Origin: a virus
Reading direction: 5' to 3' (one strand)
Virus record (IMG/VR): IMGVR_UViG_3300029993_000025
Location: 1 to 26,727 of that record
Length of the DNA stretch: 26,727 nt
Each line of letters begins with the position of its first letter. Positions within the stretch are counted from its first letter, which is position 1. Below, one piece after another: positions 8,744 through 16,986 of the stretch. The translations under genes and the position numbers were made by a program. The notes under the pieces were generated by a model. The model was not told the DNA's origin. It did no database searches and saw only the letters and a list, made by a program, of their open reading frames with translations.

Positions 8744-8836
8744 GGGGACGTGTAATCGAGTGGTTGAAGATACCGGCCTGTAAAGCCGGTACCCAAGTGG
8801 TAAACATCGGTGGTTCGAATCCATCCGGCCCCACCA
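8744..8836 (+). tRNA. tRNA-Tyr (anticodon GTA)
   Basis: Anticodon stem CCGGC/GCCGG closes the loop CTGTAAA, giving anticodon GTA. The T arm GGTGG-TTCGAAT-CCATC pairs (one G-U). A long variable arm lies between, as expected of bacterial tRNA-Tyr. Acceptor strands GGGGACG and CGGCCCC pair except for one A-G mismatch at position 5, followed by discriminator A and an encoded CCA (8834-8836). It lies 6 nt after the previous stop and 9 nt before the acetyltransferase start, so it must be processed from a messenger RNA. Confidence 0.9.
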
Positions 8837-8845
8837 GAGGAACTA

Positions 8846-9277
8846 ATGGCGAAGAAAAAGAAGATCGTCGTGAAGCACATTGACGCAGCCAAGAACACGC
8901 AGGTCATCAAGACTGCGTTTCTTGAAGCTGTGCCAGATATGATCGAGATCGGTGCAGTAGGCGGTATGTGGTCACCCATCCGTGGGGATCAGGCGTGCTT
9001 CTACGTGGAAGACAAGGGTAAGGTAGTTGGAATCCTCCAGTACTTCTTCGATGAGGATGACGATTCAGGCTGGGTTCAACTCGGCTGGGTCAACAAGGCG
9101 TATCGCGGGCGTGGTATCTACAAGGCCATGTGGAAGAAGTTTGAGAAAGCGACTTTGAAGCACGGCGGCAAGAAGGTCTGTGGTCTAGTCGTTCACGGTA
9201 ACGAGCCGATGGAGAAGGCCGCTGCTGCAATGGGGCGCAAGATAACCAGTAGTGTGTGGACCAAGGAGCTGAAGTAA
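8846..9277 (+). CDS. GNAT-family N-acetyltransferase
   Basis: GNAT enzymes transfer an acetyl group from acetyl-CoA to an amine. The 143-residue protein has the GNAT core: KVVGILQYFF (beta 3-4), SGWVQLGWVNKAYRGRGIYKAMWKKFE with the pyrophosphate-binding R/Q-x-x-G-x-G/A loop at about 86-91, and VCGLVVHGNEPMEKAAAAMGRK (beta 5 and following helix). The frame is open upstream through the tRNA, but ATG 8846 after AGAGGAAC is the sensible start. It lies between tRNA-Tyr and an RNA ligase and overlaps the ligase start (TAATG). The substrate could be a protein, a small molecule or an aminoacyl-tRNA. Confidence 0.8.
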   Translation: MAKKKKIVVKHIDAAKNTQVIKTAFLEAVPDMIEIGAVGGMWSPIRGDQACFYVEDKGKVVGILQYFFDEDDDSGWVQLGWVNKAYRGRGIYKAMWKKFEKATLKHGGKKVCGLVVHGNEPMEKAAAAMGRKITSSVWTKELK

Positions 9278-10458
9278 TGTTGCTAAAAGACTACCTCGAC
9301 GTAGACAAGCTTGAGCAGTATATCGCGGAGGGTCTAGTTACCCGTCGCGCTCACCCTGAGCTTCCGTTGTCGATCCTCTGCTATAGCAAGCAGGCGACCT
9401 TTGATAACGTCTGGGACGACATCACCATCAAGTGCCGTGGTCTCATCGTGGACGACAAGGGTGTCATCATCTCTCGTCCGTTCGAGAAGTTCTTCAACAT
9501 CGACACGCTGGACCGGCCTGAGACTCTGTTCACCAATCTGCCGGACCAACACCCTGCTGTCTTCGAGAAGCTGGATGGGTCACTCGGTATCTTCTACGAG
9601 TACAAGGTAGGGAACGATACGTTCTTCGGTGTCGCGTCCAAAGGATCATTCACGTCTGACCACTCCAAGTGGGCGACGTACTGGTTCAGTAAGCACTGCA
9701 AGAACCACCAGTGGCCTGCGGGCTACACACCAGTCTTTGAGATGATCGCGCAGGCAGTTCAACGCCACGTGGTTCATTACGAGATCGAAGATCAACTAGT
9801 CTTACTGGCGCTCATCAACAACGAGACCGGCGAAGAGATTAGCTACAACGAGCTGTACCACTACGCATTCCTGAACGGACTAAAGACCGTCGAGATTTTT
9901 GCTAAGACGGTGAGCACGGTTCTAGTAGAGGATCGACCGAACACGGAGGGCTACGTGCTGTCGTACTGGCGGCCCAACCTTCCGCCTTTGAAGATCAAGG
10001 TGAAGCATGAGACCTTCCTGAAGCTCCAGAAGATTGTTCACGCGGCGACCCCGAAGAACATCCTTGAGGCGCTGACGAACGGGGACTACGATATCATCGA
10101 GACATGGACGAAGGATGCTGGCCGACCGGAGCTTGTGAGCTTCGTTGAGGAGTGGCAGAAGACCTTCACCACTGCGTACGCTGGCATCATGCTTCAGACC
10201 AAGAAGATCGTAGACAATGCGCTTATCCGCAACTACGAGAGTCGCAAGTCTGTTGCTGAGTTCTTCCTAACCGAGAAGGACGGCAAGTACTCTGGCCTCT
10301 GCTTCATGGCCTACGATGGCAAAGACCCGTCGCAGGCTGCGTGGAAGATGGTGCGCGACGAGTACCGTGAAGAGTTGAACCGGCCCGTTATGGGTGACCC
10401 AGATGATGACGACAACAACGGCGTCAAGCTGGTGATGGAAGAGGAGAGTTATGCCTAA
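9277..10458 (+). CDS. T4 Rnl1-like RNA ligase
   Basis: ATP-dependent RNA ligase that joins 3'-OH and 5'-phosphate ends; T4 Rnl1 reseals tRNA cut in the anticodon loop. The nucleotidyltransferase motifs are in order: FEKLDGSLG with the AMP-accepting K98 (motif I), the upstream KCRGLIVDDKG and RPFEKFFN of the Rnl1 type, PVFEMI (motif III), NTEGYVLS (motif IV) and LKIKVK (motif V). After the ligase core come ~120 helical residues resembling the Rnl1 C-terminal domain, and then an acidic tail (DPDDDDNNG). At 393 residues it is close to T4 Rnl1 (374). The true start is the ATG overlapping the previous stop; the open frame upstream is inside the acetyltransferase gene. It overlaps the downstream phosphatase by 8 nt. 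Confidence 0.85.
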   Translation: MLLKDYLDVDKLEQYIAEGLVTRRAHPELPLSILCYSKQATFDNVWDDITIKCRGLIVDDKGVIISRPFEKFFNIDTLDRPETLFTNLPDQHPAVFEKLDGSLGIFYEYKVGNDTFFGVASKGSFTSDHSKWATYWFSKHCKNHQWPAGYTPVFEMIAQAVQRHVVHYEIEDQLVLLALINNETGEEISYNELYHYAFLNGLKTVEIFAKTVSTVLVEDRPNTEGYVLSYWRPNLPPLKIKVKHETFLKLQKIVHAATPKNILEALTNGDYDIIETWTKDAGRPELVSFVEEWQKTFTTAYAGIMLQTKKIVDNALIRNYESRKSVAEFFLTEKDGKYSGLCFMAYDGKDPSQAAWKMVRDEYREELNRPVMGDPDDDDNNGVKLVMEEESYA

Positions 10459-10978
10459 CAAAGCACCGAAGCGTATCGCCGTTGACTTCGACGGTACATT
10501 GTGTGACCATGCGTACCCCGAGATTGGCGCAGTAAAACCGGGTGCGAAGGCCGCGTTGGATATTTTCAAAGCCTTGGGCTACGAGATCATCATCTGGTCT
10601 TGCCGTAGCTGCCACTGGGACTACGACATCTATGGCGGAGACCCGGCGCAGCCAGTGCTTGAGCGTAAGCAAGTGAAGGCGATGGTTGACTTCCTGAAGG
10701 CCAACGACATCCCGTTCGATCACATCGACGATGGGTCCAAAGGCAAGCCGAGCGCGGACTTCTACATCGACGACAAGGCCATCCCGTATCAGAACAATTG
10801 GGATCAGATTGCATTCCTCATTCACCGCAAGGAGACTGAGGATAAGATCAGAGCGTTCGAGGCGATGAGAGCTGCGCAGGAACAGGCGGCGACGGCGCAA
10901 CCTCAGGGTTCTGTTTCTGGTGCTGCTACCCCCCAGTCCCGCCAACTCAAACCAGTGGTGCTTCCAGTAAAGGGATAA
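10451..10978 (+). CDS. HAD-family phosphatase (PNKP phosphatase-like)
   Basis: HAD phosphohydrolase with all four motifs: VDFDGT with nucleophile D12 and D14, W-S50 (motif II), Lys in SKGK at 97-99 (motif III) and YIDD with D107/D108 (motif IV). Small phage HAD enzymes of this shape include the 3'-phosphatase half of T4 polynucleotide kinase, which prepares cleaved tRNA ends for ligation. Overlap with the RNA ligase makes that role plausible here, but no kinase domain is attached. Residues ~140-175 are a low-complexity Ala/Gln/Pro tail. An alternative is a nucleotide phosphatase. Confidence 0.75.
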   Translation: MPNKAPKRIAVDFDGTLCDHAYPEIGAVKPGAKAALDIFKALGYEIIIWSCRSCHWDYDIYGGDPAQPVLERKQVKAMVDFLKANDIPFDHIDDGSKGKPSADFYIDDKAIPYQNNWDQIAFLIHRKETEDKIRAFEAMRAAQEQAATAQPQGSVSGAATPQSRQLKPVVLPVKG

Positions 10979-10980
10979 CT

Positions 10981-11268
10981 ATGGCGACTCGTACTCGCAA
11001 ACTAGTAGCAGCTTCATCCACGTACCTTGATCCGTTGCACTGTGACTCTACGATCAACTACAAGGTCATAGAAGGCTCTCGTGATCCTTACGGCATGATG
11101 CAACTGGCTGACTGCGAGGACAAGATCACATGGTACTTCTACAAGAAGTCCGGGCTGGCAAAGATCAAACGCGCAATAGCTGCGCTGCAAGACTTGGAAG
11201 CAACGTTAGAACTGACGTTCGCTAAGCCGAAGCCGGTACGCAAGAAGGTAACGAAGAAGGTCAAATGA
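10981..11268 (+). CDS. Small basic hypothetical protein
   Basis: ATG 2 nt after the phosphatase stop, with AAAGGGA upstream. The 95-residue product has a folded-looking middle (KITWYFYKKSGLAKIKRAIAAL) and a Lys/Pro-rich tail (KPKPVRKKVTKKVK) suited to nucleic-acid contact. It overlaps the next gene by 4 nt (ATGA). Not recognised. Confidence 0.55.
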   Translation: MATRTRKLVAASSTYLDPLHCDSTINYKVIEGSRDPYGMMQLADCEDKITWYFYKKSGLAKIKRAIAALQDLEATLELTFAKPKPVRKKVTKKVK

Positions 11269-12032
11269 GCAAGCCTTTGGCTCCTACAGTAATCGTCGGG
11301 GCGGTAGTGGCAGGAGAGGCGGCTGCAACACGGGCCGCCTTAGAGAAGGTCATCAATAGCGTCAACACAAGCAACTTCGACATTGCTGAGCTTTGTGCCA
11401 AGATCGAGTCGAAGGGCTTCTACGCACCGTTCAACACGTTTCAGGAGTTCACTAAGACTCTGAAGATCAAGCCTCGCAAGGTCCAGTACCTAACGCGCAT
11501 GGCGAAGATCATGAACGTGATGGGCATACCGCGTATCGAGTACGAGCCACTGGGCATCGCACGGCTGCGAGAGATCACATCTCTCGACCCGGCTGTCGAT
11601 TACGTGAACCCGGTGACCAACGCTCACACCCCTATGACGGAGTTCATCAAAGCTTTTATGGTGAAGGATGAAGCCACAGGGGACTACATCGATCTTGAAG
11701 ACCTGAAGCGACACGTGCGAACTCTCAAAGGGTTCGTCGGTGCCAACGACCTGACGTGGGTCAATCTTCAGATGACGCGCAGTGCTTTCGACAACACATG
11801 GAAGCCCGCGTTGGATTTAGTGAAGGCAAATGCCGGGTCCGCTGGTAAGGACGACGAGGGCATGAGTTACGACATCTCAGATGGGTCTGCTGCGGAGAAG
11901 ATGGCCGCCGACTACCTGAATGACCCCGCCAACCAACATGCGTTGCTGCTGGGCGTAGCAGATGAGGAAGAACAAAATGAAGTTGATTCAGGAATTGAAG
12001 ACACGTTTGATAAGGCTCCATCCTTCGGATGA
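11265..12032 (+). CDS. Hypothetical protein with helical, ParB/DUF3102-like N-terminal half
   Basis: A 255-residue protein. Residues ~25-110 are helical with a pattern common in phage and plasmid DNA-associated proteins: FDIAELCAKIESKGFY, then TFQEFTKTLKIKPRKVQYLTRM, then GIARLREITSL. This resembles helix-turn-helix segments of ParB-like or DUF3102-like proteins, but I cannot place it firmly. The C-terminal ~50 residues are acidic (ADEEEQNEVDSGIEDTF). It overlaps the membrane-protein gene downstream by 56 nt. Confidence 0.55.
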   Translation: MSKPLAPTVIVGAVVAGEAAATRAALEKVINSVNTSNFDIAELCAKIESKGFYAPFNTFQEFTKTLKIKPRKVQYLTRMAKIMNVMGIPRIEYEPLGIARLREITSLDPAVDYVNPVTNAHTPMTEFIKAFMVKDEATGDYIDLEDLKRHVRTLKGFVGANDLTWVNLQMTRSAFDNTWKPALDLVKANAGSAGKDDEGMSYDISDGSAAEKMAADYLNDPANQHALLLGVADEEEQNEVDSGIEDTFDKAPSFG

Positions 12033-12615
12033 GCTTAGGGATCAGATCACACACACATTGTTGGGCCTAGTAGGACTCGGCGTGCCTATGGTGCTCCTGA
12101 CTAATTACACGGGCAGTCACCCTATCACAATCGCGGCGATAGCGGTTGCGCTGGCCTCCTTCGGTGGAGTGTACGAAGGCTACCTCGTACGGCAGGATGC
12201 CTATGAGCGCAAGGTAGAGAACGTCTACGATATGTGGGACTCGGATTCAGGCCGCCTGCGGCAAGAGCTGAGAGACTGGAAGCTCCAGAACGTAATCGAT
12301 ACGGCCCGGTTGTGCGAACTACGCACTGAGCTGGAAGACGCACGCAGCAAGGTCATCCCCGGCAATGAGTTCGTACAGAAGCTAGATCGCAAGATTGTGC
12401 AAAATCTTTCGAGTGACATCTACAAATACCATCTCCTTCACACCGCTGGGTTCAAGCAGAGGGTCGATGAGCTGTTCCCTAACGAGGAGTACGTTCATCC
12501 TTTCGAACCGACTCACCCGGATGTACAAGTGGCCACGTTACTCTTCACAGGACCGGAGAAAGTCGAGTTGGCGATTCAACAGGTACCGGAAGGTATCTTG
12601 GAGGCAAAACTGTAA
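11977..12615 (+). CDS. Two-helix membrane protein with charged cytoplasmic domain
   Basis: ATG 11977 is preceded by GAGGAAG at 7 nt; ATG 11962 in the same frame lacks a ribosome site. The 212-residue product has a basic amphipathic start, two hydrophobic helices (about 25-38, HTLLGLVGLGVPMVLL, and 46-64, ITIAAIAVALASFGGVYEG) and then ~140 charged helical residues (YERKVENVYDMW, RLRQELRDWKL). Both ends are therefore probably cytoplasmic. Function unknown. The 56-nt overlap with the upstream gene means its start lies in that gene's acidic tail. It ends at TAATG of the second HAD gene. Confidence 0.6.
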   Translation: MKLIQELKTRLIRLHPSDELRDQITHTLLGLVGLGVPMVLLTNYTGSHPITIAAIAVALASFGGVYEGYLVRQDAYERKVENVYDMWDSDSGRLRQELRDWKLQNVIDTARLCELRTELEDARSKVIPGNEFVQKLDRKIVQNLSSDIYKYHLLHTAGFKQRVDELFPNEEYVHPFEPTHPDVQVATLLFTGPEKVELAIQQVPEGILEAKL

Positions 12616-13007
12616 TGAGACCTTGGATTGGGGTAGACTTGGACGGCACCTTGGCACGCTATGAGACGTTTGTTAGTCCTACACACATCGGTGAACCTAT
12701 ACCACTGATGGTTGAGCGTGTCAAGTCATGGTTGAGGTTCGGGTTTCAGGTAAAGATCATGACGGCCCGCGTGTACGCTCCCTCTCTCACCGACAACGTG
12801 AGCGAGAAAGAGTTCCACAAGCGCAACCTAGACGCCCGCCGCGCACGCAAGGCTATCGAGGAGTGGTGTGCCCTACACATCGGGTACACGCTCGAAGTCA
12901 CTTGCACGAAAGACTATGGGATGCTTGAGCTGTACGATGACCGTGCTGTGCAGGTCGAGAAGAACACTGGCCGGTTGGTAGGATACACTACACGTGCCAC
13001 TACCTAG
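12615..13007 (+). CDS. Second HAD-family phosphatase
   Basis: A 130-residue HAD enzyme: VDLDGTLA with D8 and D10, MT50AR (motif II), K99 in TCTKDYG (motif III) and LYDD with D108/D109 (motif IV). It lacks the low-complexity tail of the first HAD protein and the two are clearly different in sequence. Compact HAD proteins of this type are frequent in phage and are usually annotated only as phosphatases. Candidate substrates are nucleotides or 3'-phosphorylated RNA or DNA ends. It overlaps the HNH gene by 14 nt. Confidence 0.75.
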   Translation: MRPWIGVDLDGTLARYETFVSPTHIGEPIPLMVERVKSWLRFGFQVKIMTARVYAPSLTDNVSEKEFHKRNLDARRARKAIEEWCALHIGYTLEVTCTKDYGMLELYDDRAVQVEKNTGRLVGYTTRATT

Positions 13008-13266
13008 ACGCATATCAATAGCTTGCTTTCAAAGAGACGGGTGGAAGTGTCGTCACTGCAATAGCAGAAACGGCCTCCACCCGCATCATTTGATCTACCA
13101 GTCCCACGGCGGCCCGGACGATCTATGGAACCTGCTGACGCTCTGTGCGGGCTGCCACCGCGCTCACCATGACGGCTTCCTCGACATCGAGTGGACGATA
13201 CTTGACGCAGGCCCGAGGCCCGAGGTACAATTCATCAGGCGTAAAGGATGGAAACCAACATGGTAG
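12994..13266 (+). CDS. HNH endonuclease
   Basis: A 90-residue HNH nuclease, cutting DNA with a beta-beta-alpha metal site. C19-x-x-C22 and C51-x-x-C54 form the zinc-binding pair of cysteine knuckles. HPHH (29-32) supplies the catalytic histidine, N46 lies in DLWNLLTLC, and H58/H59 lie in CHRAHHD. GTG start inside the end of the phosphatase gene. It is short enough to be either a free-standing homing-type nuclease or part of DNA processing. I see no intron or intein disrupting its neighbours. Confidence 0.8.
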   Translation: MPLPRRISIACFQRDGWKCRHCNSRNGLHPHHLIYQSHGGPDDLWNLLTLCAGCHRAHHDGFLDIEWTILDAGPRPEVQFIRRKGWKPTW

Positions 13267-13276
13267 GTAATGACTA

Positions 13277-13600
13277 ATGAATCGACAGTACTGGGATACA
13301 ACTCTCCCCGTGGACCGAAGGACAACCGTTCTACTAACCAAGGGAGCAGTCCCAACTCTGACGCGAGAGAATAACCCGCGCTCCGTGCTCCTGCACACTC
13401 TCCTCGACATGGAGAAGCAGAAGGACCGGATAGACCTTGAAGAGAGACACTTCATGGTCGTCGCAGCCGGTGCGAAGGAACCCCAAGGCTACACGTACGT
13501 GGGTACCGCAGTTCCGAAGAACAGGAACAGCACTGTCTGGCTCGTCTTTGAGGACGCGAAGAACACCGGAGTAAATGCCGTACCGACCATACCAATCTGA
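13277..13600 (+). CDS. Hypothetical protein, 107 residues
   Basis: ATG with a weak GTAGGT upstream. Central region helical (RSVLLHTLLDMEKQKDRIDLEERHFMVVAAG), then beta strands. It overlaps the helicase start by 26 nt, and the GGAG ribosome site of the helicase is in its last codons. Not recognised. Confidence 0.5.
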   Translation: MNRQYWDTTLPVDRRTTVLLTKGAVPTLTRENNPRSVLLHTLLDMEKQKDRIDLEERHFMVVAAGAKEPQGYTYVGTAVPKNRNSTVWLVFEDAKNTGVNAVPTIPI

Positions 13601-15224
13601 GATGCACGAGGCCAGCATCAAGGCTTACGATGCTGGGATTCACTTACAACTCATCAGTGCGGCGACCGGGACTGGTAAGACGCAGACCTTCGCTGGCATC
13701 CCTGACGTATTTCGTTCGCGTCTCCCCGGCCAGATGCTTGTGCTGGCGCACCGCGAAGAGCTGATCGATCAGGGCATCAAGAAGATCAAAGAGGTGAACC
13801 CACACCTTACCGTTACGAAAGAGATGGCGGGCGACATAGGCGACGTGAATGCTGACGTGATCGTCGGATCGGTCGCTACACTGGGCAACAAGAACTCTGT
13901 CCGAGGGGAACGGTTCCCTTGGCACAACATCGACAAGATCATCACGGACGAGGCACACCATGCAACATCTGACACTTATCGGACAGTTTATTCTCTTGCT
14001 GATGTTCTTCGTCCTGATACACATAAACTCCATCTTGGAGTTACCGCGACTCCTCAGAGGGCTGACGGCAAAGCTCTCGCAGAGATTTTCAAGCGAATTA
14101 TTTACGAGTATTCCCTACGCAGGGCGGTTGAAGAGGGCTATCTCGTCGAGCCTCATGGCATCCGAATCAAGACGAACACAAGCCTCTCAGAAGCCAAGTC
14201 TTCCAATGGCGATTACTCTGCCAGCTCTCTCGCAGCCATCATCAACAACCCCGAGCGAAATCAACTCGTCGTCAAGGCATGGCTCGACCACGGTCAAAAC
14301 CGTAGGACAATTGGTTTCACTGCTGACATCCAGCACGCCTTGGATTTGGTGGCGATGTTCAAATACTATGGAGTCAAGGCTGAAGCTATCTGGGGGGATG
14401 ACCCGGAGAGAAAGGCTAAGATCGCTAGGCACCAGAGTGGCGAGACCACAATCCTTCTCAACTGTGGCGTGCTCACGGAGGGGTACGACGACCCGGCGAT
14501 TGGCTGCATTCTACTCGCTCGACCCACAAAATCGGGAGTACTCTACTGTCAAATGGTCGGTCGAGGGACGAGACTATTTATCGGGAAGACCGATTGCATC
14601 GTCATTGACGTGGTTGACTCGACGGCGAAGAACTCGCTTCTCACCCTACCGACACTTCTCGGTCTCTCCACCACACTTGACCTAAAGGGCAGAGGTGTGC
14701 TATGGGCCGCACGGCAATTGGAAGAGGCGGCGAAGGACTATCCACAGATCGACTTCTCGAAGCTCGTAGACATCGACTCCATAACATCTCATATCGAGTC
14801 TGTCAACCTGTTTGAAGTGAAGTTCCCTGAGGAGGTGCAGACCAACTCAGAGCTTACGTGGTACACGTCACCCACAGGTGGGTACATCCTGAAGCTGCCG
14901 GGTGAGTACTGGCAGAAAGATAAAGTCACCATCGATCAGAATCTACTTGACAAGTGGGAGGTCATCGGTGATATAAAGGGATTGCGTTACCGTGGTGAGC
15001 GCGACACAATGGAGGAAGCCTTCCGTGCCGCAGACAAGCTCATTGACGATAAGATACCTGAAGCGTTGAATCTCCTGAAGCAAAAGGCCGGGTGGCACGA
15101 CAGGCCCGCGACCGAGCCTCAGAAGAAAGCCATCAAGCGGTACTACCCCGGAAGGGCTATACCGCACGACCTAACTAACGGCGCGGCCTCCCGCCTGATT
15201 GGACTGGCCAAAGCGAGAAAGTAG
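13575..15224 (+). CDS. SF2 (DEAH-type) helicase
   Basis: Superfamily 2 DNA helicase of the type III restriction/UvrB-like kind. Motifs in order: Q-like YRPYQ at the N-terminus, SAATGTGKT with K35 (motif I), VLAHREEL (Ia), TDEAHH with DEAH 125-128 (motif II), GVTATPQR (motif III), a second RecA-like domain with TILLNCGVLTEGYDDP and QMVGRGTR (motif VI, arginine finger). About 170 C-terminal residues beyond motif VI are not recognised. At 549 residues both RecA folds are complete. It probably unwinds recombination or replication intermediates. The third-codon-position GC content drops in roughly 13970-14660 compared with the start of the gene. Confidence 0.85.
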   Translation: MPYRPYQSEMHEASIKAYDAGIHLQLISAATGTGKTQTFAGIPDVFRSRLPGQMLVLAHREELIDQGIKKIKEVNPHLTVTKEMAGDIGDVNADVIVGSVATLGNKNSVRGERFPWHNIDKIITDEAHHATSDTYRTVYSLADVLRPDTHKLHLGVTATPQRADGKALAEIFKRIIYEYSLRRAVEEGYLVEPHGIRIKTNTSLSEAKSSNGDYSASSLAAIINNPERNQLVVKAWLDHGQNRRTIGFTADIQHALDLVAMFKYYGVKAEAIWGDDPERKAKIARHQSGETTILLNCGVLTEGYDDPAIGCILLARPTKSGVLYCQMVGRGTRLFIGKTDCIVIDVVDSTAKNSLLTLPTLLGLSTTLDLKGRGVLWAARQLEEAAKDYPQIDFSKLVDIDSITSHIESVNLFEVKFPEEVQTNSELTWYTSPTGGYILKLPGEYWQKDKVTIDQNLLDKWEVIGDIKGLRYRGERDTMEEAFRAADKLIDDKIPEALNLLKQKAGWHDRPATEPQKKAIKRYYPGRAIPHDLTNGAASRLIGLAKARK

Positions 15225-15541
15225 TGTCAAAGCCCAAGATTTACGAACTCTCGAAAGAACAGAACGACGCGATGGGCAGTCTTGCTAACGGGAAGAGTCC
15301 GATCAAGATTGCCGTCGAGCCTAACCCTGAGGATGACCAAGAGACAAAAGATCGCTTGACAAAAGTACTCGGACAGTGCGACGATCTAGTCAAGCTTGGA
15401 TTCATCAAAGACATCACGAACAAGTACGCAGAGGACGTAGCGATATCGAAGCTCAAGACTGGGCGCGGCATCAAGATGTTCCTCATCACCGATGTGGGCT
15501 ACGATATGTTTCACGGCCCTAAGAACCCCACGATCCACTAA
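15224..15541 (+). CDS. Small protein, possibly winged-helix
   Basis: GTG overlapping the helicase TAG by one base. The 105-residue product has two helices around residues 45-65 (DRLTKVLGQCDDLVKLGFIKDIT) and then a hairpin GRGIKMFLITDVGYDMF resembling the wing of a winged-helix domain. DNA binding is therefore possible but not shown. Its stop codon lies in a 17-nt sequence repeated at 17339-17355. Confidence 0.5.
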   Translation: MSKPKIYELSKEQNDAMGSLANGKSPIKIAVEPNPEDDQETKDRLTKVLGQCDDLVKLGFIKDITNKYAEDVAISKLKTGRGIKMFLITDVGYDMFHGPKNPTIH

Positions 15542-15552
15542 CCTGCAAAGGA
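15536..15552 (+). repeat. Repeated leader/ribosome-site element, copy 1
   Basis: CACTAACCTGCAAAGGA occurs here and, identically, at 17339-17355. In both places it ends in an AAAGGA ribosome site 5 nt before an ATG. Here it includes the stop codon of the preceding gene. Confidence 0.6.
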
Positions 15553-15557
15553 CGCCC

Positions 15558-16838
15558 ATGATTACGAACCAGTCTGACCTCGACGCCGTACTTGGAGAAG
15601 GTGCATCCAATACCATTCTCGGGTACAACACTATCCTTGACCGCCGCGACATCCCCGAGCCGAAGAAGGCCAACCATCAGGCCAAGATCGTGAAGATCGA
15701 AGCCCTCCTGCCCCACACCAATGCCGACTCCCTCTCCCTCGTTCAGATCGATGGCTTCCAAGTCGTCGTGCGTAAGGGTCAGTTCCATCCGGGTGATCTG
15801 GGCGTCTACATCCAGCCAGACTCCATCGTGCCCCAAACCGAGGCGTTCAAGTTCATCTGGGAAGCGTACGTCGGCCTCGACGGTACGGTGCCTGAGAACA
15901 GACGGCGTATCACGGTACGCAAGTTCCGCAAGGAGTGGAGCGAAGGTCTCTTGCTTCCTCTCACTGACTTCACTGAGCTGACGGACGGCGCGACCGGCGC
16001 GGTCGATCCTTTCTGGAACGCACCGGGTCTGGACATCTCCGACATCATCGGTGTGACACACTACGATCCCGATGTCGTCGAGAACACACAGGGAGCCAAG
16101 GCGTCGAGTGCCAACTCACCGCGCCGAAAGTTCCGGTACCCACGTACTCTCCGTGGCTGGTTCCATCTCATCAAGCGTATCATCGCTGGGCGCTCGTTGC
16201 GTGAGACGACCAAAGACGTGTCGTTCAGCATCCCCGTCTTCGACGTGGAGGGCTTCAAGAACTACCCGAACACGTTCGAGGAGAACGAGCAGGTAGTTGT
16301 TACTGAGAAGGTCCACGGATCGAATGCGCGGTTCATCGCCATCGATGGTGAAATCTTCGTGGGTTCCCGTAACCAGTGGAAGGCCGACAACGGTTCGACC
16401 GTCTGGCACAAGGTTCTCAAACAGAACGAAGACCTGACGCGCTGGCTGCTTGAGCACCCCGGCCATGCAATCTACGGAGAGGTGACACCTACCCAGAAGA
16501 ACTTCCCGTACGGGCCGAAGGACGATGCTGTGGAGGGTGAGGTTCGGTTCTTTGCCTTCGACATCCTGACCCCGCAACGCGAGTGGATGGACTACGGTTC
16601 CTTTAGCTTCTCTCTGCTGTCGTACCCCGGCATCGAGATGGCACCCCTCCTGTACCTTGGGCCGTACAACAAAGACAAGATCATGACGCTGGTGGATGGA
16701 CCTTCATGGGTCTACCGTGCTAACCACATCCGCGAGGGTGTCGTCATCAAGGCCACCAAGGAGCGCACGGTTCGAGGACTGGGCCGAGCGATGCTAAAAA
16801 TCGTGTCGAACACTTTCTTAGAGGGTGACTCTAAGTAA
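15558..16838 (+). CDS. DraRnl/Rnl5-type RNA ligase with N-terminal OB fold
   Basis: A second RNA ligase, different from the Rnl1-like enzyme. Residues ~25-150 form an OB-like module (QAKIVKIEALLPHTNADSL, VVVRKGQFHPGDLGVYIQ). After a linker (GVTHYDP, RRKFRYP) comes the nucleotidyltransferase with TEKVHGSN (AMP-accepting K251, motif I), FFAFDIL (motif III), REGVVIKA (motif IV) and LKIVS (motif V). An OB fold placed in front of a K-x-H-G ligase core is the layout of Deinococcus radiodurans RNA ligase (Rnl5 family), which seals nicks with a 3'-OH RNA end. ATG 15558 follows AAAGGA; the frame is open 22 codons earlier without a ribosome site. It lies directly upstream of a hairpin and tRNA-Trp. Confidence 0.8.
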   Translation: MITNQSDLDAVLGEGASNTILGYNTILDRRDIPEPKKANHQAKIVKIEALLPHTNADSLSLVQIDGFQVVVRKGQFHPGDLGVYIQPDSIVPQTEAFKFIWEAYVGLDGTVPENRRRITVRKFRKEWSEGLLLPLTDFTELTDGATGAVDPFWNAPGLDISDIIGVTHYDPDVVENTQGAKASSANSPRRKFRYPRTLRGWFHLIKRIIAGRSLRETTKDVSFSIPVFDVEGFKNYPNTFEENEQVVVTEKVHGSNARFIAIDGEIFVGSRNQWKADNGSTVWHKVLKQNEDLTRWLLEHPGHAIYGEVTPTQKNFPYGPKDDAVEGEVRFFAFDILTPQREWMDYGSFSFSLLSYPGIEMAPLLYLGPYNKDKIMTLVDGPSWVYRANHIREGVVIKATKERTVRGLGRAMLKIVSNTFLEGDSK

Positions 16839-16910
16839 CGAGATCGTCCTCGGGGTAGCAGTCAATAAGCCTTATACAGAATGGATGAAGACTGCACCCC
16901 GCAGGCTCGA
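16839..16910 (+). ncRNA. Strong intergenic hairpin upstream of tRNA-Trp
   Basis: In the 73 nt between the RNA ligase stop and the tRNA, GGGGT (16852-16856) and GCAGTC (16858-16863), separated by one bulged A, pair with GACTGC (16890-16895) and ACCCC (16896-16900). This gives an 11-bp stem with a 26-nt loop. An outer CGAG (16839-16842)/CTCG (16906-16909) pair can extend it. The loop holds a small ATAAG-C-CTTAT inverted repeat. There is no U tract, so it is not a standard terminator. It may be a processing signal, a stability element or a tRNA relic. Confidence 0.45.
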
Positions 16911-16911
16911 T

Positions 16912-16986
16912 GGGCTGATAAGCTAATTGGTAAACTGTCTGCCTCCAAAGCAGAACTTCTTCGTTCGAGTCGAAGTCGGCCCGCCA
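16912..16986 (+). tRNA. tRNA-Trp (anticodon CCA)
   Basis: Acceptor GGGCTGA pairs fully with TCGGCCC (one G-U). Anticodon stem TCTGC/GCAGA closes the loop CTCCAAA, giving anticodon CCA. T arm CTTCG-TTCGAGT-CGAAG pairs perfectly. Discriminator G73 is the bacterial tRNA-Trp identity base, and CCA is encoded at 16984-16986. The D stem is imperfect (AGCT/AACT, one mismatch). The frame of the next protein is open through it, but its start is downstream. Confidence 0.9.

Follow-up and report, generated by a model that had tools for sequence, protein, structure and literature searches.

We analysed a 26,727-nucleotide window (positions 1 to 26,727 of the IMG/VR virus record IMGVR_UViG_3300029993_000025), which is part of the genome of a soil phage of ~97 kb, kin to the Tunturiibacter phage Tunturi_3. 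Positions 8744 to 16986 hold two RNA ligase genes, two HAD phosphatase genes and two tRNA genes, which an earlier reading of the sequence (the original prediction) had taken for a joint RNA repair-and-replacement block. The features are listed below (aa, amino acids; PNK, polynucleotide kinase).

8744..8836, + strand: tRNA-Tyr (GTA), found by ARAGORN and Rfam; strain-variable
8846..9277, + strand: GNAT acetyltransferase (Pfam 1e-8); accessory
9277..10458, + strand: Rnl1-family RNA ligase, 393 aa (PF09511 1e-19; PHROG 562 9e-55; motif I EKLDGSLG)
10451..10978, + strand: HAD1 phosphatase, overlapping Rnl1; nearest solved folds 2obb/1xpj
10981..12615, + strand: orf95 and orf255, conserved small core-block proteins, and a 217-aa protein; no known domain
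12615..13007, + strand: HAD2 phosphatase; PHROG 415 (PNK), phosphatase part only; T4 Pnkp 3'-phosphatase fold, weak
15558..16838, + strand: Rnl5/DraRnl-type RNA ligase (PF09414 8e-22 and N-terminal PHA02142 OB fold 1e-16; motif I EKVHGSNAR)
16912..16986, + strand: tRNA-Trp (CCA), found by ARAGORN and Rfam; adjoins Rnl5 in the relative G004 too

Gene content and conservation of the block

The coordinates agree with the gene order first proposed, in which tRNA-Tyr is followed by GNAT, an Rnl1-type ligase and a HAD phosphatase as a string: the GNAT, Rnl1 (preferred start, ATG at 9277) and HAD1 genes overlap one another. tRNA-Trp had been placed directly behind the DraRnl/Rnl5-type ligase, and the distance from the 3' end of Rnl5 (preferred start, ATG at 15558) is indeed 73 nt. 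Both tRNA genes have a complete tRNA fold, an anticodon and an encoded CCA, with Rfam scores of 44 bits for tRNA-Tyr and 52 bits for tRNA-Trp (cut-off 29). The two ligases do belong to different families, both ATP-dependent. Rnl1 has an RNA_lig_T4_1 domain with a KxDG motif I and intact downstream nucleotidyltransferase motifs, and its profile reaches the solved T4 Rnl1 (1e-17). Rnl5 combines an N-terminal OB fold with a nucleotidyltransferase domain whose motifs are intact, and its profile reaches the solved Naegleria RNA ligase (6e-22). The active-site motifs of both enzymes are invariant among relatives. We take the Rnl5 family to be that of Deinococcus DraRnl and Naegleria NgrRnl, with which the phage protein shares an N-terminal OB fold and an RNA_ligase domain; it differs from them in being about 45-50% identical among the phage relatives and in carrying a motif I intein in one lineage. 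Both phosphatase assignments also held: HAD1 and HAD2 match Pfam and PHROGs weakly, yet both contain the DxD motif and show HAD folds. Given the ARAGORN, Rfam, Pfam and PHROG calls, we rejected the possibility that the tRNAs or ligases are spurious or wrongly annotated.

No near-DNA match of the block was found among phage GenBank records. IMG/VR holds same-species contigs (G001, G002, G003 and G007, 99.8-99.99% identical to the window), including the near-complete, 96.7-kb G003, and beyond the window species about ten further lineages, several of 91-99 kb. The best full-length relatives of both ligases are encoded by the isolate Tunturi_3 (accession PP885686), a 97.6-kb podovirus of Acidobacteriota (PMC11924767), which shows the same order of Rnl1 (40% identity), HAD1 (57%), helicase, Rnl5 (49%) and primase, and differs in lacking GNAT and HAD2 and in having neither ligase close to a tRNA. 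Conservation and tRNA proximity were compared across 12 related lineages, in which the ligases are core genes of a syntenic replication block. Its recurring order is integrase, PDDEXK, ssb-like, Rnl1, HAD, orf255, HNH, helicase, Rnl5, primase/helicase, endonuclease VII and RecA, with synteny in the nine lineages that have Rnl1. The 217-aa protein is less conserved, with a weak partial match in Tunturi_3 only, and of the relatives examined, only those of the window species have GNAT.

A HAD gene lies within about 200 nt of Rnl1 in all nine Rnl1 lineages and overlaps it in five; in G008 and G009 it is the HAD2 type that occupies the slot adjoining Rnl1. Neither HAD1 nor HAD2 is detectable in the three lineages that have Rnl5 without Rnl1 (G011, G014/G012 and G015). 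Rnl1 and Rnl5 thus vary independently of each other, and since Rnl5 also varies independently of Rnl1 with its HAD, the replication block contains two modules, Rnl1 plus HAD and Rnl5. Rnl5 of G006 is truncated past its OB domain (L058; G006 41930-43300) and is therefore dispensable in at least one lineage. The best folds for HAD2 are T4 Pnkp phosphatase, at modest scores; HAD1 is not Pnkp-like, its nearest folds 2obb and 1xpj being HADs of unknown role. RlaP, an RNA-ligase-associated nucleotidyltransferase, is present in G005 and G014, two of the lineages. Tpt1 (RNA 2'-phosphotransferase) was considered as a general part of the set and rejected, with just two weak partial matches in 16 records.

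In G013, a LAGLIDADG intein of ~351 aa (L098:2922-3974; Pfam LAGLIDADG_2 4e-22, Intein_splicing 2e-7) splits Rnl5 exactly in motif I, between KIHG and SNAR, and in contigs related to G013 (L021-L024) the Rnl5 match stops at the same point. Among the papers listed by a literature search on inteins, none evidently concerned an RNA-ligase intein.

These genes might have nothing to do with tRNA repair: the Rnl1 homologue could attach tail fibres or work in nucleic-acid metabolism, and the HADs could be nucleotide phosphatases. The name of PHROG 562 ('RNA ligase and tail fiber attachment catalyst'), the location of the ligase genes in a replication block and the dissimilarity of HAD1 to Pnkp would fit such roles. 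We find them improbable in view of the Rnl1-HAD linkage and of the second RNA ligase, from another family, in the same block; the tail-fibre role in addition sits poorly with the nearest isolate, Tunturi_3, being a podovirus, unlike T4 (PMC11924767).

Absence of a 5'-OH kinase

The original prediction found no kinase for 5'-OH ends in the window, which is correct, and the absence extends to the whole genome; its suggestion that such a gene might lie elsewhere in the phage was not borne out, none being present in near-complete G003. A P-loop motif search of G003, G006, G008, G009 and Tunturi_3 (~91-99 kb each) detected no PNK-type P-loop kinase, the P-loop open reading frames (ORFs) of these genomes being helicase, RecA and AAA proteins. 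An AAA_33 search of 16 records gave no match, and Pfam and PHROG scans of 57 further proteins revealed no kinase among the best 25 of 42 PHROG families. Within this clade the PNK profile matches HAD genes only, and the clade possesses the phosphatase-like half of PNK without the kinase half; in the control phage G016 the same profile finds a full PNK (1.2e-26; 325-aa frame with a P-loop). One protein of Tunturi_3 annotated as 'kinase' (gp59) was rejected as a PNK: it lacks a P-loop, matches no Pfam family and appears protein-kinase-like by eye.

The comparison with the tRNA-Lys repair pathway of T4 can be drawn from these data. Like T4, the clade has an Rnl1-family ligase, and one of its HADs weakly resembles the Pnkp phosphatase domain in fold; it differs in having no kinase domain or gene, in encoding the phosphatase as a separate protein and in having an Rnl5-type second ligase where T4 has Rnl2. 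A T4-like repair of 2',3'-cyclic phosphate/5'-OH breaks (of the PrrC, RloC or colicin type), with the host supplying the 5' kinase, would account for ligases of the T4 Rnl1 kind and for two HAD phosphatases, one of them weakly Pnkp-like. We nevertheless regard it as unlikely, as phages with the full T4-type set keep PNK near Rnl1, whereas this clade has none in five near-complete genomes. Such full sets are those of G016 and of Streptomyces phages with a related Rnl1, in which PNK is three to four genes off.

tRNA genes and the ligases

According to the original prediction, tRNA-Tyr with Rnl1 and HAD, and tRNA-Trp with Rnl5, would form two functional repair-and-replace units against Tyr- and Trp-cutting defences. 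The adjacency of tRNAs and ligases in the window speaks for this arrangement, as does the tRNA-Trp adjoining Rnl5 in G004, a sequence poorly similar to that of the window; phage tRNA-Tyr, moreover, rescues phages from retron-Eco7 (PMC11555353). Strain comparison points the other way. In G002 and G003, 382 bp of unrelated DNA stand where the window has a 105-bp segment with tRNA-Tyr; the flanks match the window at 99.8-99.9% identity and retain GNAT, Rnl1 and HAD1, and G003 has no tRNA-Tyr elsewhere. Outside the window species, tRNA-Trp beside Rnl5 recurs in G004 and nowhere else among the relatives, and in further relatives with both ligases the tRNAs are more than 6 kb off, with the sole exception of G013. 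Across the 12 lineages, the ligases with a tRNA within 200, 500 and 1000 nt number 1, 3 and 3-4, against 1.5, 2.0 and 2.6-2.8 under random rotation, and proximity is not above chance (rotation test, P 0.29-0.81). tRNAs and ligases vary independently in relatives, and we rejected selected adjacency on the strain comparison and the rotation test. The coupling of tRNAs to ligases is incidental and the tRNAs look like chance neighbours; we accordingly give the two-unit proposal little credence. Targeting of Tyr and Trp in particular would be suggested only by precedent, that of retron-Eco7 (PMC11555353). As in T5, which counters this retron with tRNA-Tyr, the window has a complete phage tRNA-Tyr gene; here it is a single strain-variable gene and not part of a tRNA array.

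Two further elements were seen at these positions. The 382-bp replacement (L042:7327-7709; G003 27327-27709) holds a 71-aa ORF and a small T-arm-like hairpin. The exception in G013 is a tRNA-like element with an abnormal anticodon arm (L097:16082-16175), which lies in the ssb-Rnl1 gap, 286 nt from Rnl1, and occupies the spot of the window tRNA-Tyr.

G002 and G003 also carry a tRNA-Asn (U1-A72, G73) whose anticodon is broken between U35 and U36 by a structured insert of 49 nt (L045:6897-7020; G003 c86897-87020). The same insert (46-50 nt, preceded by CTGT and followed by TAA) occupies the same position in tRNA-Asn of two unrelated phage contigs (L107:2544-2668 and L109 ~690-820), that is, in three lineages altogether. 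Its ends are conserved (GCGAGA...UCUCGAAAAG), and it folds into a T-arm-like hairpin, CCAG-UUCAAAU-CUGG, stacked on a CGAGAU/AUCUCG stem. The pattern has no match in a set of 84,980 bacterial and archaeal species genomes, and in INPHARED it met only chance matches and the 5' halves of ordinary tRNA-Asn genes of mycobacteriophages; the extra matches to relaxed patterns (four in one search, others in another) are not tRNAs. Two of the three insert-bearing genes adjoin endonuclease-like genes, HNH-like in L107 and read by eye in L109. G016, a 127-kb contig, carries the insert together with PNK and three RNA ligase genes (Rnl1 and two other matches). In three more tRNA-like genes of this contig the anticodon arm is enlarged, with inserts of 27-42 nt (61174-62511, L117-L123; ARAGORN). 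A permuted tmRNA gene is present in G003 (L045:12022-12277; Rfam RF04321, 71 bits, cut-off 47).

The interrupted tRNA-Asn could be a ligase substrate, and the ligases as a whole might process the phage's own RNAs, this one above all. The constant position of the insert in three phage lineages, its absence from the bacterial and archaeal genomes and the three ligase genes of its carrier G016 favour such a role; in other members of the clade both ligases occur but no such tRNA does, and we think it improbable as the general explanation. Because most relatives with both ligases lack the insert, its processing cannot be the ancestral function or explain ligase conservation. It is highly improbable, though conceivable, that kinase-free ligation includes the split tRNA-Asn, the minihelix-like (acceptor/T-arm) insert being cut out by RNase P and RNase Z and the 3'-OH/5'-P halves being joined by the phage ligases. 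If true, both the intron and its splicing would be of a new type for tRNAs in bacteria.

A possible role in kinase-free RNA ligation

We give about an even chance to the proposal that the block, rather than being a tRNA-ligase unit, provides RNA repair within a conserved replication region of the phage and performs kinase-free ligation at 5'-P/3'-OH breaks. It would comprise two separable pieces, Rnl1 with its linked HAD phosphatase gene and the free-standing Rnl5/DraRnl-type ligase, which would seal RNAs of host or phage origin, chiefly tRNAs, after cleavage by defence nucleases that depend on metal (Toprim, HNH or PIN type). Such nucleases leave 5'-phosphate and 3'-OH ends, for which no 5' phosphorylation is needed. 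ATP-dependent RNA ligases require precisely these ends (PMC7824862), and 5'-P/3'-OH breaks are the most likely ligase substrates because these phages lack a polynucleotide kinase. Defences of this kind are known: 5'-P/3'-OH ends are the expected chemistry of tRNA cuts by the PARIS effector AriB, the 3'-OH having been confirmed (PMC12409363), and retron-Eco7, which depletes tRNA-Tyr, includes the HNH nuclease PtuB (PMC11555353). Rnl1 may act on breaks in single-stranded loops and Rnl5 on those in duplex regions, while 3'-phosphates would be removed by at least one HAD, more probably HAD2. On this view the tRNAs are accessories, acquired and lost independently, that may stand in for cut ones. 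A kinase-free two-ligase set would suit metal-dependent damage better than cuts of the PrrC/colicin type. In favour of the proposal are the core synteny, the Rnl1-HAD linkage, the invariant ligase motifs, the lack of PNK, the best folds of HAD2, the RlaP genes of two lineages and the published precedents.

Several points weigh against this proposal. Breaks that all end in 3'-OH need no phosphatase, so that the HADs imply at least some 3'-P substrates, unless they have another function. Either HAD may serve nucleotide metabolism, since the folds are matched weakly (E = 0.01 for HAD2) and the HADs nearest to HAD1 are of unknown role. The 5'-phosphates could come from a host kinase, and G003 is not proven complete. 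The co-occurrence of HAD and Rnl1 (9/9 versus 0/3 lineages) was counted without correction for phylogeny. The data show the identities of the genes, their conservation and linkage, the lack of a kinase and the variability of the tRNAs; substrates, end chemistry and anti-defence role are what we infer.

The set is of a known kind, as multi-ligase RNA repair with stand-alone HADs has already been described in jumbo phages (PMC7824862). The genomes of both groups contain several ATP-dependent ligase families, stand-alone HAD phosphatases and phage tRNAs, as well as RlaP, here in some relatives, and the co-occurrence of RNA ligase with HAD phosphatase, a mark of the jumbo-phage sets, is found in this clade. 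The differences are that end-healing enzymes generally accompany the ligases in jumbo phages, whereas no polynucleotide kinase is present here, and that the present genomes are of ~97 kb, with a fixed pair of Rnl1 plus HAD and Rnl5 in the replication block. What is unusual here is the kinase absence. The usual picture of phage RNA repair is a kinase-phosphatase-ligase pathway directed against metal-independent anticodon nucleases. From a clade that has two ligases and a linked phosphatase gene, and lacks a kinase, one would predict a counter-defence adapted to metal-dependent tRNases, whose products carry 5'-P and 3'-OH ends.

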